Shown piece by piece: positions 5,502 to 32,254 of a stretch of DNA of 34,782 bases; within the stretch, counting starts at the first letter, position 1, and every line of letters starts with the position of its first letter. The notes below the pieces were generated by a model that saw only the letters and a list, made by a program, of their open reading frames with translations, did not search any database and was not told the origin of the DNA. A program made the position numbers and the translations under genes. Origin of the DNA: a virus; the IMG/VR virus record IMGVR_UViG_3300033142_001844, positions 1-34,782 of that record. The stretch is one strand, 5' to 3'.

Positions 5502-5543
5502 CTAGAAGTCTGTTAAAATGGGGGTGGAGTTGCTTCTGCTCCT

Positions 5544-5596: not shown

Positions 5597-6190
5597 ATGA
5601 ATGAATCAGAAAAAAAAGAATTAGAAAAAGTAATAAAACATATGCAGGAAAGCAGGGAAAAGTTTAATATTATTGCAGATGAATACCAGGACTTGCTTAA
5701 TAAGTTAAGGATTGAAGAGGAGGAAGCGGAACACGGTGTAAGATTTATCCCATCACCTAGTTTTGCTCCTGGAAGGGTAATTGATAGAATTGTAATTCAC
5801 ATTACACAAGGGAGTTTTACTGGAGCTATAAACTGGTTAAAGAACCCTAACTCAAAAGTATCAGCTCATTTTGTAATATCAGGAAAAGGTGAATTAGTTC
5901 AAATGGTGAACTTAAAAGATATTGCCTGGCATGCAACACCATATAATACAAGATCAATTGGGATTGAACATGAGGGTAAATATGTTATTGAACAGGGCTG
6001 CATAAGTACATCTTTTACAAAAGAGCAATATGCAAAATCAGCTAAATTAGTTAAAGAACTTGCTAATAAATTCGGAATCCCGCTTGACAGAAAGCATATT
6101 ATAGGACACAATGAAGTGCCTGGGGCTACAAAAAGTTGTCCTTCTCCTTTATGGGACTGGGATTATTACATGGAGTTATTGGGTGAATAA
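5597..6190 (+). CDS. Endolysin: N-acetylmuramoyl-L-alanine amidase (Amidase_2)
   Basis: A 197-residue lysin that should cut the bond between N-acetylmuramate and L-alanine in peptidoglycan. Residues about 1-45 form a charged coiled coil; the rest is an Amidase_2 (T7-lysozyme-like) domain. Plausible zinc ligands are H68 (IVIHIT), H171 (GHNEVPG) and C181 (SCPSP), with H112 in WHATPYNT and the GIEHEG strand also typical. There is no signal peptide, so a holin would be needed, but none stands next to it. GGGG lies 8 bases before the start. Most phage amidases lack such a coiled coil; it may mediate multimers or wall targeting. Confidence 0.9.
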   Translation: MNESEKKELEKVIKHMQESREKFNIIADEYQDLLNKLRIEEEEAEHGVRFIPSPSFAPGRVIDRIVIHITQGSFTGAINWLKNPNSKVSAHFVISGKGELVQMVNLKDIAWHATPYNTRSIGIEHEGKYVIEQGCISTSFTKEQYAKSAKLVKELANKFGIPLDRKHIIGHNEVPGATKSCPSPLWDWDYYMELLGE

Positions 6191-6549: not shown

Positions 6550-6825
6550 ATGAGTATTAAGAAATATAGAAAAAAACCTGTAGTAATCGAGGCAATTCAG
6601 TTATTGAATACTAAGGAGTCACTTGAAGAGTGCATTCACTTTGCTGGGGATTCTGCCAGATATTCGGACTCTACTGAGTATGATTTTACAATAGGGATTA
6701 GAACCCCTGAAGGTATGATGCAGGCTAGAGTCGGAGACTACATTATTAAGGGCGTGAAAGGTGAATTTTATCCATGTAAGCCCGATATTTTTGATATGAC
6801 TTATGAATATGAGCCTGTAAGATGA
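6550..6825 (+). CDS. Conserved phage protein with GDYIIKG motif (PGDYG-like)
   Basis: A 91-residue protein that starts with YRKKPVVIEAIQ and ends with VGDYIIKGVKGEFYPCKPDIF. Both segments are hallmarks of a small protein found in very many phages and related to the PGDYG family. Its fold is probably a small beta barrel. Its biochemical role is unknown to me. GGGG precedes the start and the next gene overlaps its stop. Confidence 0.8.
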   Translation: MSIKKYRKKPVVIEAIQLLNTKESLEECIHFAGDSARYSDSTEYDFTIGIRTPEGMMQARVGDYIIKGVKGEFYPCKPDIFDMTYEYEPVR

Positions 6826-6983: not shown

Positions 6984-7418
6984 GTGCCAAAAGGTAAGTA
7001 TGAAAGTCATGTTGAGCCAAGATTTAAAGAGATAGAGCACTGGAGAACCGTAGAGGGTTTAACAGAGGTGGAAATAGCCAAAATGCTAAATATAGGGTAC
7101 AGTACACTTAAGGGTTATAAAAATAAGTATCCAGCCTTTCTGGCCATGTTAAAAAGGAGTAAGATAACTCTTGTTTCTGAATTAGAAAAAAGTCTGTTTA
7201 AGTTGGCTATGGGTTTTACAGAGGATAAATATTATGCTCCAAATGTTACAGCTTTGGTTTTTGCACTTACTAATCTAGATCCTGATAACTGGTCTAGAAA
7301 TACTAAAGATGATGCTAAAACAGAAGAGCATGCAAAGAAAACACCTGCTTCAGAGGCAACAAGAAAGAAGAATTTGGATGATTTACTTAATAAAGATGTT
7401 CCAGAGTTGGAAGAATAG
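6984..7418 (+). CDS. terS: Terminase small subunit
   Basis: A 144-residue protein. Residues about 20-50 form a helix-turn-helix (LTEVEIAKMLNIGYSTLKGY) that resembles the DNA-recognition domain of phage terminase small subunits. The middle (VSELEKSLFKLAMGF ... VTALVFALTNLDPDNWS) is the helical part typical of that family, which drives oligomer rings. It recognises the packaging site and hands DNA to the large subunit encoded 750 bp downstream. The GTG start lacks a strong ribosome site. Confidence 0.8.
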   Translation: MPKGKYESHVEPRFKEIEHWRTVEGLTEVEIAKMLNIGYSTLKGYKNKYPAFLAMLKRSKITLVSELEKSLFKLAMGFTEDKYYAPNVTALVFALTNLDPDNWSRNTKDDAKTEEHAKKTPASEATRKKNLDDLLNKDVPELEE

Positions 7419-7427
7419 GGAGGAAAG

Positions 7428-7874
7428 ATGCATGAAATGAGAATTGATTATGATGAGATGTTAAATGCGCTTAAAGCTGAATTATTAAAAGTGCAGGACG
7501 ATATTGATCTTTTGATGGATAAGGGGGAAACCGAGCCAGAGCAGGGCTATAATTATGACTTCATCATGTACGATGATATGATTGATAAAAGAGTTGAACT
7601 AGAGGCTTTGATTATATCATTCAAGGAAATATGGAAAATTGTTGGATGGCCCACTGAGAAGAAAAGGATGCTAGAGTTTAATAAGGTGCACCATCCAGGG
7701 GATGCAGAAGGTGAGCTTAACTTCTGGGGCGATGACCGTTTATTGCCAGAGTATTATATGGCTGTATGCAAGATAAATAGAGCAGAAGCAAAAGAAAATG
7801 TTCAGGAAGAAAAAAACAATAATGAGTTTTTTCGTAAAAAGGGAATAGTTCGAGAGGAGAAAAAAGATGTTTAA
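7428..7874 (+). CDS. Packaging-region protein of unknown function
   Basis: A 148-residue protein between the two terminase subunits. The first half is a coiled coil (MLNALKAELLKVQDDIDLL), the middle contains IWKIVGWPTEKKRML, and the C terminus is basic and charged. GGGAGG precedes the ATG. No function can be assigned; the position suggests a DNA-packaging or head accessory role, or simply an inserted accessory gene. Confidence 0.7.
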   Translation: MHEMRIDYDEMLNALKAELLKVQDDIDLLMDKGETEPEQGYNYDFIMYDDMIDKRVELEALIISFKEIWKIVGWPTEKKRMLEFNKVHHPGDAEGELNFWGDDRLLPEYYMAVCKINRAEAKENVQEEKNNNEFFRKKGIVREEKKDV

Positions 7875-8166
7875 AACACTAGACAATGTAAATGAGATTA
7901 GTTGCTTTATTGAAGTTAACAATGATGAAAACACAATAAAATTTAAAATTCAAGATGGTCCAGTTGGTGAAAGCGGGACTAATGGGTGTCAACTTGATGA
8001 TGTTATTGCGGTGGGCAAAATGATGCTTGAGGGGCTTAATGTTGATGAGTTCAGGTGTCGTGAAAATGCAGTTGCAATCACAAAGCTTGATGAGGCCTTG
8101 ATGTGGCTAAGAAAAAGAAGAGGGGATAGAGTAAGAAGGTTTGTTGAGGGCACAAGCAAGCCTTAA
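7867..8166 (+). CDS. Tad1/Acb2-family candidate nucleotide-signal sponge
   Basis: A 99-residue protein. Residues about 8-42 are beta-rich, with the motif DGPVGESGTNGCQLDDVI; residues about 45-85 form a two-helix hairpin with FRCRENAVAITKLDEALMW, then VEGTSKP at the C terminus. In my recollection this matches proteins of the Acb2/Tad1 hairpin domain family, which bind cyclic nucleotide signals and block CBASS or Thoeris defence. The beta region plus hairpin favours the Tad1 type. It is inserted between the terminase genes and overlaps the upstream gene by 8 bases. Ligand and activity are inference. Confidence 0.6.
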   Translation: MFKTLDNVNEISCFIEVNNDENTIKFKIQDGPVGESGTNGCQLDDVIAVGKMMLEGLNVDEFRCRENAVAITKLDEALMWLRKRRGDRVRRFVEGTSKP

Positions 8167-8168
8167 CT

Positions 8169-9794
8169 ATGAAAAAAGCCGCCAAATTAAAAAAAGTAAA
8201 TAAAATAGATTATATTGAACCTAACAGGGCATATGAAATTTATAATTATTTAAAGGGGTGGTTAAATAAGTGGGATTACCTGCAAAGCATAAAAGAGGAT
8301 TACGATTTATTTCAAATAAATTCTATATATACTAAATATGCAAAAAAGTATCTACATGAAAGAAATGAGATTAGAGCTGAAATATTAGCAGATGAAAAAC
8401 TTTATGAGCAGGTTAAAGAGTTAGCTGAAAATGATTTTCTGTTTTTTATATTAATTGATGCTTTTAGTTATGATATAAATAGAGCTGATAAAGATGTTGA
8501 TGGAAGTCCAGAGCTTCCTTTTATGCCATTCCCTCATCAATTAGATTTGATTCATGTTCTGCAATATTCTAAAAAGCATGTACACATTGAAAAAGCAAGA
8601 AGACAGGGTGCAAGTGTTATTCTTGTTCATTATTTAAGATGGTTATTGATATTTGGTAAAAAGCAAATCCTTTTTACTACTCATGTAGATTTAAAGTCTT
8701 TAGATAAAGGCAAGTTAGATGTTGGTAAAAACTCAACAATGGAAAGAGTTAGATGGGGTTTAGATAAATCTTTATTTATTCCGAACGATTGGCGAGATGA
8801 GAAAAAGTATTGGAATAATAAAACAATGCTTTATAAAACAGAAGATGCACAAAAGCATACAATAACAATTGGCTCAAATCAATTAAATGGTGAAGTTTTA
8901 GGCAAAAAAACTGGTGTTGGATTTGCTGGTGATGTTTTTGCAGGTGATGAAGTTGAGGTTGTTTTTGATCTATATCCGAATCTAGCTGATACATTGATGG
9001 GTTCTTTTGCAAGTTCTGTAAATAGGGTTATTTTATATTCTACATATAGATCAATGAAGTTTCCATTTTATAAAATAAAGATGAACCAAAGCCCTAGGTG
9101 GGACTTTATAACATTAAGGTGGCAGGATAACCCGATTTGCAACAGTGATTGGTATGAAAATGAGTGTGCCAAGCTTGATAATGATAAAGTTCTTATTGCC
9201 AGAGAGCTTGATATAGACCCTACAAAAGTGAGACACGGTGTTATTTGGGGCACCATTGGAAAGCATAATTATGTTACCAATCTTGATACAAGAGGCTGGA
9301 AAAAAGTAGTCGGGGCAGATTTTGGGGGCGGTGAAAGTAATACGGCTTTTGTATTTGGCTATTGGCATCCTAAAAGAGAGGTGTTGTACTTGCATGATTT
9401 ATTAAAAACAACAGAGATGAGCGAGATTGAAATAGCTGTATATTTTAAGAAAATTGGCTACCTGGGTATAGCTGTTGTTGGTGATCAATCAGGAAGCTTT
9501 CAGGCAGCAACAGCAGGGCATGACTGGTACACCTTGCTTAAGGATGTCGGGATTAGGGTTCATGGGCTGAATTCTAATTATATGTACAGAGTTAGAGCCA
9601 GGATGAAGACAAAATTTAAGGGTAGTGAAATATTGATAAATGATAAGTGCGGGCCTCTTAAGCAGGATTTACTAGGCTATGCATATAAACATGGCAAAAT
9701 AGATAAAAATGAAGAATCCCACACTGGAGACGCTGCCTCATTTTTAGGAAAATACTTATATTTTCCAGGCTCTACAATAGGATTTATAGGGTAA
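8169..9794 (+). CDS. terL: Terminase large subunit (packaging ATPase-nuclease)
   Basis: A 541-residue motor protein that translocates DNA into the prohead and cuts it. The N-terminal ATPase carries a Walker A-like loop KARRQGAS (about residues 142-149) and an acidic Walker B candidate near FAGDEVEV. The C-terminal RNase-H-like nuclease has the expected aspartates: D384 (VGADFGGG), D439 (VVGDQSG) and D521 (HTGDAASF). Length is normal for a siphovirus TerL. It starts 2 bases after the sponge-like gene without a strong ribosome site. A 75-base gap with no gene follows. Confidence 0.93.
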   Translation: MKKAAKLKKVNKIDYIEPNRAYEIYNYLKGWLNKWDYLQSIKEDYDLFQINSIYTKYAKKYLHERNEIRAEILADEKLYEQVKELAENDFLFFILIDAFSYDINRADKDVDGSPELPFMPFPHQLDLIHVLQYSKKHVHIEKARRQGASVILVHYLRWLLIFGKKQILFTTHVDLKSLDKGKLDVGKNSTMERVRWGLDKSLFIPNDWRDEKKYWNNKTMLYKTEDAQKHTITIGSNQLNGEVLGKKTGVGFAGDVFAGDEVEVVFDLYPNLADTLMGSFASSVNRVILYSTYRSMKFPFYKIKMNQSPRWDFITLRWQDNPICNSDWYENECAKLDNDKVLIARELDIDPTKVRHGVIWGTIGKHNYVTNLDTRGWKKVVGADFGGGESNTAFVFGYWHPKREVLYLHDLLKTTEMSEIEIAVYFKKIGYLGIAVVGDQSGSFQAATAGHDWYTLLKDVGIRVHGLNSNYMYRVRARMKTKFKGSEILINDKCGPLKQDLLGYAYKHGKIDKNEESHTGDAASFLGKYLYFPGSTIGFIG

Positions 9795-9869: not shown

Positions 9870-11174
9870 GTGGCAGATAATAACAAAGAGCTGAAAAATC
9901 TACCAAAATATGAGCAATTAAAAATAGCATTAAAATCTTATTTGGCAATAGATAAAGCCAGGTTAGGCGCAATCATAATTGCTGCTTATAAAAGTATAGG
10001 GCAAATTGAAACACTGCCTATGCGATTTGTCACATCATTTATAGATCAACAAGCAAGTCTTTTTTCTGGTAAAATTGCAAGACAAATAAGTGGTCAAGAG
10101 GATATAATAGATTTAGATGTCTTAACAGATGCAGAAAGTGAAGCAGAAAGTTATTTTCACCTTTTTAAAAAAGCTGCTATGTTTGTTTACTTTGATAAAG
10201 ATAAAGATGAAGATGATAATGAGATATCTTTTCAGGCTTTAGATTCTACTGTTTATTTTAATGCATACAAGCAAAATAAAAGCTGGTACTACCAAAAAGA
10301 AGATTTAGTTACAGTAAGGTATACGGAAAATGAAGATAAAAGTATTAGTGTTTATAAAAAGACTGGAAAAACTCTAGAAAGCGTATTGACTGGTGATGGA
10401 AGTGATATTGTTTTTCATGATTCTGAGCAATGGCTTGATGCTGGTATAGAAGTTGATGTGATGCCTTTTGTAGAATGGTCTTACAAAAGAATTGAGACAG
10501 CAGTTTATAATGATCTTGTTGATTTAGAGCAAAATTATATAAAAGTTGTAAGCTGGGGTATCTATAATTTAGAGCCAAAACTTTTAAGTCAGATTGCTGT
10601 TGAATCTGGAATGTCTAAAGAGGAATTAAAAGGGGTTCTAACAGATTTAGGCAGAACAACAAAGGCTTTAAATCTAGGTTTAAATGATAAATTACTCTAT
10701 GTTGACTTAGGTGATGCAAAAGTTCTTGAGCAGGCATTAACAAGTTATGAAAAATTATTGACACAAAGGGCTTTGAGCTTAGGTGTTGATAAAAATGCAG
10801 TTATCCCAAGTGCTAAAGTTGAGTCTGGTACTGCAAAGATGATTGAGCTTGAATATATAAACGAAAAAAGAAATAAATATAAATTAGGTGCTAAAATATT
10901 TGAGAAAGAGATTATGAAAATTGTAGAAAAGATGACTGAAAAATCTTTTAACTATGGTGGAATTGTCTTTTTTGATAAAACTGTTGCACCAACTAAAGAA
11001 GAAGTAAGAGTTTATGCAGATGCAATGAAGGGTTCTAAATATTGGTCAGATATTCAGGCTTATGCTTTTGTACATCAATTAGATGAAGTTCAGGCAAAAA
11101 AGAAGATGCTGGAGCATGGATTACTTAATGATGATTTAAATAAAGATGATGATGAGAACATTAATGAGGAGTAG
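9870..11174 (+). CDS. Portal protein
   Basis: A 434-residue protein that directly follows the large terminase, as portal genes do. It has mixed helix/strand domains, a region resembling the portal wing (IDQQASLFSGKIARQI), and near residues 310-345 the helix region (SGTAKMIELEYINEKRNKY) typical of the portal crown-proximal helices. It should form the dodecameric vertex ring that docks terminase. GTG start with GAGGGG 5 bases upstream. It is close to the SPP1-type portals in size class; exact family uncertain. Confidence 0.8.
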   Translation: MADNNKELKNLPKYEQLKIALKSYLAIDKARLGAIIIAAYKSIGQIETLPMRFVTSFIDQQASLFSGKIARQISGQEDIIDLDVLTDAESEAESYFHLFKKAAMFVYFDKDKDEDDNEISFQALDSTVYFNAYKQNKSWYYQKEDLVTVRYTENEDKSISVYKKTGKTLESVLTGDGSDIVFHDSEQWLDAGIEVDVMPFVEWSYKRIETAVYNDLVDLEQNYIKVVSWGIYNLEPKLLSQIAVESGMSKEELKGVLTDLGRTTKALNLGLNDKLLYVDLGDAKVLEQALTSYEKLLTQRALSLGVDKNAVIPSAKVESGTAKMIELEYINEKRNKYKLGAKIFEKEIMKIVEKMTEKSFNYGGIVFFDKTVAPTKEEVRVYADAMKGSKYWSDIQAYAFVHQLDEVQAKKKMLEHGLLNDDLNKDDDENINEE

Positions 11175-30574: not shown

Positions 30575-30600
30575 GAGTCGCTCCACTTTCGGGGTGGCTC
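30575..30600 (+). terminator. Hairpin ending the short plus-strand transcript
   Basis: GAGTCGCTCC (30575-30584) pairs with GGGGTGGCTC (30591-30600) across a 6-base loop when read as plus-strand RNA (10 pairs with three G-U). The same stem on the minus strand would have three A-C mismatches, so it is built for plus-strand RNA. T-rich DNA follows. It overlaps the end of the gene on the other strand. Confidence 0.6.
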
Positions 30601-31072
30601 ACTTTCTCTTTCTATAAATGATTATGTCCCTAACTTGACCCTTAACTGTAATTTCAACAAAACATTGCCCAGGCTTTAATATTTTAGATATAAACAGCGC
30701 TCTTTTAACTGGGTAATCCCTTGCTTGCTTAGGTCCAGATCCTTTTGTCTCAACAATAACTTTCTCACCTTCTCTCAAATATATTCCAACTAACTTGTTT
30801 TTTTTAATCTCAGTCCCTAATTTTGCATCTTCAAGCATGGTAAACTCAAAATCCGGCGTATACTTCACTCTTGATACTTTTCGCCCGTTATGTTCATTTT
30901 TGCTTAAAATTATTTGATCAATTAAAACATAAAAATCATCTTTTTTATCAAGCTGCTTAAGTCCTGTTATTTTTTTTGCAGCCTGCATTGTTTTAAATTC
31001 ATTAAAAAAACCCTCTTCCATTAATGAATCAGAATTGTTAACTTTTTTTGCACCATACTTATTATTACTCAT
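30599..31072 (-). CDS. PD-(D/E)XK nuclease-like protein (DUF1064 type)
   Basis: A 157-residue protein. The order YTPDFEF (residues about 75-80) and KVIVETKGSGPK (about 107-118) is the D...ExK core of the restriction-endonuclease-like fold, matching the DUF1064 family found beside phage recombination genes. It should be a DNA nuclease, perhaps for junctions or end processing. It belongs to the leftward operon with the annealing protein two genes upstream; start codon is an ATG with a weak ribosome site. Confidence 0.7.
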   Translation of the reverse strand: MSNNKYGAKKVNNSDSLMEEGFFNEFKTMQAAKKITGLKQLDKKDDFYVLIDQIILSKNEHNGRKVSRVKYTPDFEFTMLEDAKLGTEIKKNKLVGIYLREGEKVIVETKGSGPKQARDYPVKRALFISKILKPGQCFVEITVKGQVRDIIIYRKRK

Positions 31073-31333: not shown

Positions 31334-32254
31334 CTAATCTTTTTTAAAACTTTGCTGATATAAATTATAAACTATCTCCCTGTCTTTTAGAGATAGGTTT
31401 TTTGCTTTTATTGGATTATCAATCCCTCTCATTTCCAGTAAATCTTTTAATGTCTTAGTTCTTTCTTTTGCCTCTTCATCACTCCCCCTTAAGCTCTCTT
31501 CAGATAGCCAGTTCATAAATCCGGCATCATCTGCTAACATCTCTTTTGCTTCTTTATGAGCAGTTCTTTCTTTTTGCTTTTCAAACTCTTCTTTTTTAAT
31601 CTTCTCATTTCTTTTTATTTTTCTTTCAAGTTTCTCAAATGTTTCTTCTAGTTTTTCAAGACCCATCAATTTAAGCCTCACTTTCATTCCTTTCTCAATT
31701 CCCTTCACCTCAATATTATTATCAGAAGCTGTTTTTCTGATCATTGCGATAAGATTTTCTTTTTCTTCTGTCTCAACTTCTTCTTTTTTATTATCATTTT
31801 CCTTTTTCTCTTCAATATTTTCTGGCAGATCCTCACCAGCATAAATATAAAGACCTAAGCCAAACATTGCCAATGCTTTTACTAGGCATCTCATGATGGT
31901 TTTATTTATATCAAACATACTAATTGCTTCAACTGTTTTGTCTCCGTACTGTGTAGTGTAAGCGTAAGCATCATTTTTCATTGCTTTATTTGCTCCATTC
32001 ATAACAGGGAGCCACATTTCATGAGTTAGGCTATCAGCTGTAACCTCAACGAATACCATATAGCCCATCTCTTCAGTGCCAAAATAAGGCAATCCATTGT
32101 CATCTTTTTTAACTGTATATGTTGCGTTGGGGTAAATCTTTGAAAACTCCTTCCAGGCATGAGCCCAAGAAAGATAAGTTAAGTTTTTCTTTTTCTCAGT
32201 AAGTCCGTTTAAGTTAAGACTTGCCAGTTTGTCAAAATTACTTATATCACACAT
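31334..32254 (-). CDS. Single-strand annealing protein (DUF1071/Sak3-type)
   Basis: A 306-residue recombinase. The N-terminal 150 residues carry the family pattern: TYLSWAHAWKEFSKIYPNA, ADSLTHEMWLPVMNGANKAM and FDINKTIMRCLVKALAMFGL (each short). These are typical of DUF1071/Sak3 proteins, which anneal complementary single strands in phage recombination and repair. The C-terminal half is a charged coiled coil (residues about 155-250). GAGAGG stands before the ATG. First gene of the leftward operon behind the shared-operator promoter. Confidence 0.85.
   Translation of the reverse strand: MCDISNFDKLASLNLNGLTEKKKNLTYLSWAHAWKEFSKIYPNATYTVKKDDNGLPYFGTEEMGYMVFVEVTADSLTHEMWLPVMNGANKAMKNDAYAYTTQYGDKTVEAISMFDINKTIMRCLVKALAMFGLGLYIYAGEDLPENIEEKKENDNKKEEVETEEKENLIAMIRKTASDNNIEVKGIEKGMKVRLKLMGLEKLEETFEKLERKIKRNEKIKKEEFEKQKERTAHKEAKEMLADDAGFMNWLSEESLRGSDEEAKERTKTLKDLLEMRGIDNPIKAKNLSLKDREIVYNLYQQSFKKD

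Follow-up and report, generated by a model that had tools for sequence, protein, structure and literature searches.

Proteins of the Tad1 family act as nucleotide sponges, and both their function and the anatomy of their binding pocket have been reviewed (PMC12043709). Solved members include the 132-residue CmTad1 (PDB: 8KBB, 8KBC, and 8KBD), CbTad1 from a Clostridium botulinum prophage (PDB: 7UAV, 7UAW, 8SMD, and 8KBE), and gp184, the Tad1 of the jumbo phage phiKZ (PDB: 8Y6V, chain I), which at 230 residues carries a large extra N-terminal part. We take the source organism of CmTad1 to be Colidextribacter massiliensis. Tad1 assembles as a hexamer, a trimer of dimers, and blocks Thoeris or CBASS by binding gcADPR or cyclic di- or trinucleotides, alarm signals that infected bacteria produce.

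The window, a stretch of 34,782 nt that makes up the IMG/VR virus record IMGVR_UViG_3300033142_001844, contains a new, very short member of this already known family, whose function is also known. Judged by homology, its gene at 7867-8166 (+), hereafter tad1, probably encodes a short Tad1-family nucleotide sponge. The C-terminal 72 residues of the product can be aligned with CmTad1 (8e-15), and the two have in common a QxGP...G.NG loop, C(R)EN, two hairpin arginines, and an EGTS tail; CmTad1, however, has a fuller beta-sheet half, with 59 residues before the aligned part compared with 26 in the window protein. The likeness to CbTad1 lies in the hairpin, S(S)REN...EEALMW..R...R (phmmer and Foldseek), whereas CbTad1 has approximately 27 additional N-terminal residues and a tail reading VLGT instead of VEGT. 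With gp184 the window protein shares the C-terminal Tad1 part, but no terminase neighbors accompany the phiKZ gene in the stretch viewed. Acb2 of the T4/PaMx33 type has the Pfam hairpin PF24729 in common with the window protein but is all-helical, without a beta part (PMC12043709), whereas strands are predicted before the hairpin here. The closest relatives of all are environmental phage genes (L005, L009, L011, L060, L065, and others), 50 to 68% identical over about 85 residues, several of which adjoin terL; their products are mostly 113 to 138 residues long and keep an N-terminal insert, in contrast to the 99-residue window protein.

A short Tad1-like gene and its family assignment

The features of the locus are as follows, with L065 denoting an environmental phage record of the same gene order.

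5520-5543 (+): terminator-like hairpin preceding the endolysin gene; consensus match only
6984-7418 (+): terS, 144 aa, GTG start; phrog_309, E = 2.5e-26; homologous to its positional counterpart in L065, E = 3e-8
7428-7874 (+): orf148, no family match; unlike its positional counterpart in L065; shares 8 nt with the start of tad1
7852-7866 (+): ribosome-binding site GAGAGGAG and spacer ahead of the ATG, from the sequence itself
7867-8166 (+): tad1-like gene, 99 aa; residues 1-30, shortened beta part; 31-42, loop with GP..G.NGC; 43-90, helical hairpin; C-terminal tail VEGTSKP
8169-9794 (+): terL, 541 aa; phrog_2, E = 2e-13; 43% identical to L065 TerL
9870-11174 (+): portal-like gene, next after terL, so named by its place; 30% identical to its positional counterpart in L065, E = 2e-61; no family match

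An in-frame TAG at 7846-7848 lies 18 nt upstream of the tad1 ATG, no other start codon falls between the two, and the strong ribosome site GAGAGGAG stands 7 nt upstream of the ATG; the start is therefore fixed at ATG 7867. Homologs of the product are found at 29 IMG/VR loci and in 34 phage records, well above chance. The ORF at 7867-8166 is thus a real gene, as a sequence-only reading of this DNA had claimed, and the two motifs quoted in that reading, FRCRENAVAITKLDEALMW and VEGTSKP, are both present in its 99-residue product.

The same reading had assigned the product to an Acb2/Tad1-like family. The Tad1 part of this claim is upheld by sequence, fold, and conserved residues, while the sequence search of the PDB returned no Acb2 chain, even with the threshold relaxed to E <= 10. 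In a phmmer search of the PDB, CmTad1 (8kbb) is the top match (E = 8e-15, window protein residues 27-98), and CbTad1 (7uav, E = 1.3e-8) and gp184 (E = 8.7e-7) are also matched; phrog_2428 is matched at E = 3.5e-19. The only Pfam match is PF24729 (Acb2_Tad1_hairpin), at E = 1.1e-5 and 26.0 bits, 1 bit under the curated gathering cut-off of 27, yet the solved Tad1 proteins are matched strongly by phmmer. The relative L009 exceeds the cut-off at 28.1 bits, and 26 of 35 relatives match the hairpin model at E <= 0.01. The Pfam search of the product gave no match to PF13876 (Acb4), and the PADLOC models matched neither tad1 nor seven other small ORFs of the window. These results support a Tad1-like rather than an Acb2-like product.

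A Tad1 hairpin fold is likewise supported by structure prediction. The AlphaFold2 model, built from 28 sequences as a monomer only and of moderate confidence (pLDDT 76.6, pTM 0.64), places three short strands at residues 10-12, 15-18, and 23-26, followed by two long antiparallel helices at 43-60 and 65-90; residues 1-10 and 31-40 are of low confidence, and about 36 N-terminal residues are absent relative to the closest relatives. The short beta half followed by a helical hairpin, proposed earlier from the sequence, is thus recovered in the prediction. The complete N-terminal half of Tad1 is a four-stranded beta-sheet, compared with the three strands modeled here. The 19 best PDB matches of the model in Foldseek are all Tad1 chains (probability 1.00, query TM 0.52 to 0.61); no Acb2 chain and nothing unrelated to Tad1 was returned above probability 0.5.

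In an alignment of 35 diverse family members, numbered by the window protein, seven columns are invariant (Q29, N39, G40, R84, R88, E94, and G95), and the window protein keeps all seven. Near-invariant columns include G31, P32, G37, C41, C64, E66, N67, and V93, and here too all eight are matched. CmTad1, as aligned, shares these 15 residues except C41 and V93; both CmTad1 and gp184 carry most of the conserved residues. The loops, the EN pair, the two hairpin arginines, and the EG tail form the signature that would be expected at the pocket, and every element is present in the window protein. Going by the phmmer alignment, N67, R84, and R88 probably correspond to N92, R109, and R113 of CbTad1, which have reportedly been used in mutants.

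Placement within the packaging block

The genes are tightly packed in the order terS, orf148, tad1, terL, and portal-like gene, with the terL start 3 nt beyond the final base of the tad1 stop. PHROG matches thus bear out the placement between terS and terL given in the earlier reading, with orf148 also lying between terS and tad1. A separate promoter for tad1, suggested there, finds no support, promoter-like sites being no commoner than in shuffled sequence. From the terminator-like hairpin at 5520-5543 on to terL, no further terminator-like site is found on the + strand, and tad1 would therefore share a transcript with the packaging genes. In the simplest view, it is probably read from the packaging-gene transcript.

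The surroundings offer several further observations. An amidase endolysin gene (5597-6190, +; Amidase_2, 1.3e-32) lies upstream of the packaging module and runs in the same direction as terS-tad1-terL. A 91-residue ORF at 6550-6825 (+) belongs to a widespread phage family (phrog_419/1810) and more weakly matches a phrog annotated as nucleotide pyrophosphohydrolase; because a relative of it lies directly downstream of tad1 in L020 (6225-6467), the two genes are near each other at least twice. This ORF was considered as Acb4 and rejected, since Acb4 is PF13876 and the ORF is without any Pfam match. The opposite strand carries a recombination block with a Sak-type single-strand annealing protein (31334-32254, -; 2e-51) and a weakly matched DUF1064/Holliday-junction-resolvase-like protein (30599-31072, -).

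The same reading had called the place of tad1 odd for an anti-defense gene, but adjacency to terL recurs in this Tad1 subfamily. Two records of one phage type, L065 and L066, carry terS, a small ORF, tad1, terL, and a portal-like gene in that order, the small ORF of L065 differing from that of the window; identities to the window are 43% for TerL, 30% for the portal-like protein, 22% for TerS, and 56% over 85 residues for Tad1. Since Tad1 is 56% identical over that span while TerL is 43% identical, this suggests that a signal sponge can persist over long evolutionary time in a packaging block. With TerL called by the independent model phrog_2, it lies within 2 kb downstream of tad1 on the same strand in 11 of 33 non-duplicate records, compared with 3.7 expected at random placement (p ~0.001), a null that takes no account of gene organization, in a set that was collected through resemblance to L009 and the window gene, includes the window, and consists of records of shared ancestry, many of them fragments. 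Among records of at least 20 kb, the count is 5 of 20 against 1.1 expected (p ~0.003). When every gene lying up to 4 kb from tad1 in the IMG/VR records was clustered without prior models, TerL was the commonest neighbor (13 records), followed by a cluster of 7 records that by eye looks like a portal family.

The gene also lies elsewhere in many other records: in Lactococcus phage 1706 it follows recombination genes and precedes the endolysin gene, and in Bacillus phage P59 it adjoins a recombinase. Sequence scans with TerL and TerS against viral contigs, and with TerL against cultured phages, returned no relatives, and TerL relatives surfaced only via tad1 neighborhoods. Neither genome contigs nor plasmids yielded a prophage relative or a plasmid copy. 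In openly licensed text, we found no description of the recurrent terL neighborhood of this subfamily.

Some relatives at or near terL are of interest in their own right. Four of them (L065:10001-10405, L083:8626-8979, L084:3538-3873, and L086:172-537) have an altered RENA..TKLDEALMW core and retain Q, NG, EN, R...R, and VEG, and may belong to a lineage that is diverging toward different ligands or a different role. The tad1 stop abuts the terL start in L083 (8626-10299), and the two genes overlap by 4 nt in L084 (3514-5186), which suggests translational coupling of sponge and terminase. In L060 (922-2524), the TerL directly after tad1 appears to be split across two or three frames, possibly through a sequencing error or as a pseudogene.

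Timing, virion carriage, and alternative roles

As a member of its family, the Tad1-like protein would sequester nucleotide signals, so that the signal effectors of Thoeris and CBASS would stay off. Less certainly, synthesis together with packaging and head genes would place its action in mid to late infection. A sponge made late could still be of use, since a phage head protein can trigger Thoeris (PMC12043709).

With less certainty again, the protein might also travel in the virion. The Tad1 of phiKZ, gp184, has been found in virions and is injected (PMC10449902; PMC13282480), and its record carries the note "structural protein." With this experimental example in the family, expression at a late stage is not necessarily puzzling. 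Tad1 proteins can therefore be carried in virions; in the case of the window phage, this is speculation. It is unlikely, in our estimate, that Tad1 in these small phages belongs to the packaging module as a protein that is synthesized along with terminase and head, enters the capsid with the DNA, and is injected.

The same precedent bears on a different role, in which the Tad1 fold has been co-opted for a late structural or packaging accessory protein, of the head or associated with the terminase, that has lost sponge action. The place directly upstream of terL recurs in divergent phages, the RENA..TKLDEALMW core is altered in some TerL-adjacent relatives (L083, L084, and L086), a Tad1-like ORF in Lactococcus phage 1706 bears the annotation "structural protein," and gp184 is a virion protein. 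However, gp184 reportedly combines a place in the virion with anti-CBASS activity (PMC13282480), DNA packaging in most tailed phages proceeds without Tad1, the entire Tad1 core is intact in the window copy, and the residues retained even in diverged copies are those common to solved Tad1 proteins. We consider such a reassignment improbable and favor the sponge.

The shortened N-terminal part

Relative to its closest relatives, the window protein is without approximately 36 residues between MFKTLDNVNEI and SCFIEV, which makes it the shortest complete member seen, where relatives are mostly 113 to 138 residues long and carry the N-terminal insert. In the 135-residue relative L009, the same stretch is modeled as one strand and two helices. 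Nothing convincing for the lost part was found elsewhere in the window or in its other frames. Because these residues are absent, a binding surface could be lost, which counts against the sponge reading.

That the deletion broke the protein and left a decaying remnant is very unlikely, despite its length, as the frame is open, the ribosome site strong, and the signature residues and tail intact, and as the deleted region is already length-variable among relatives of 113 to 135 residues (L005, L010, and L015) and the opening residues, MFKTLDNVNEI, keep their likeness to the family start, which argues for a clean internal deletion.

For a working sponge, the shortened N-terminal part may alter which ligands bind, and such a minimal Tad1 could reveal which N-terminal portion each signal requires. 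Sponge timing and virion carriage in small phages also become a testable question. If the protein is indeed packaged and injected, the next host cell would be disarmed before phage gene expression begins, and the recurrent tad1-terL arrangement would mark virion-borne sponges in phages other than the jumbo phages.
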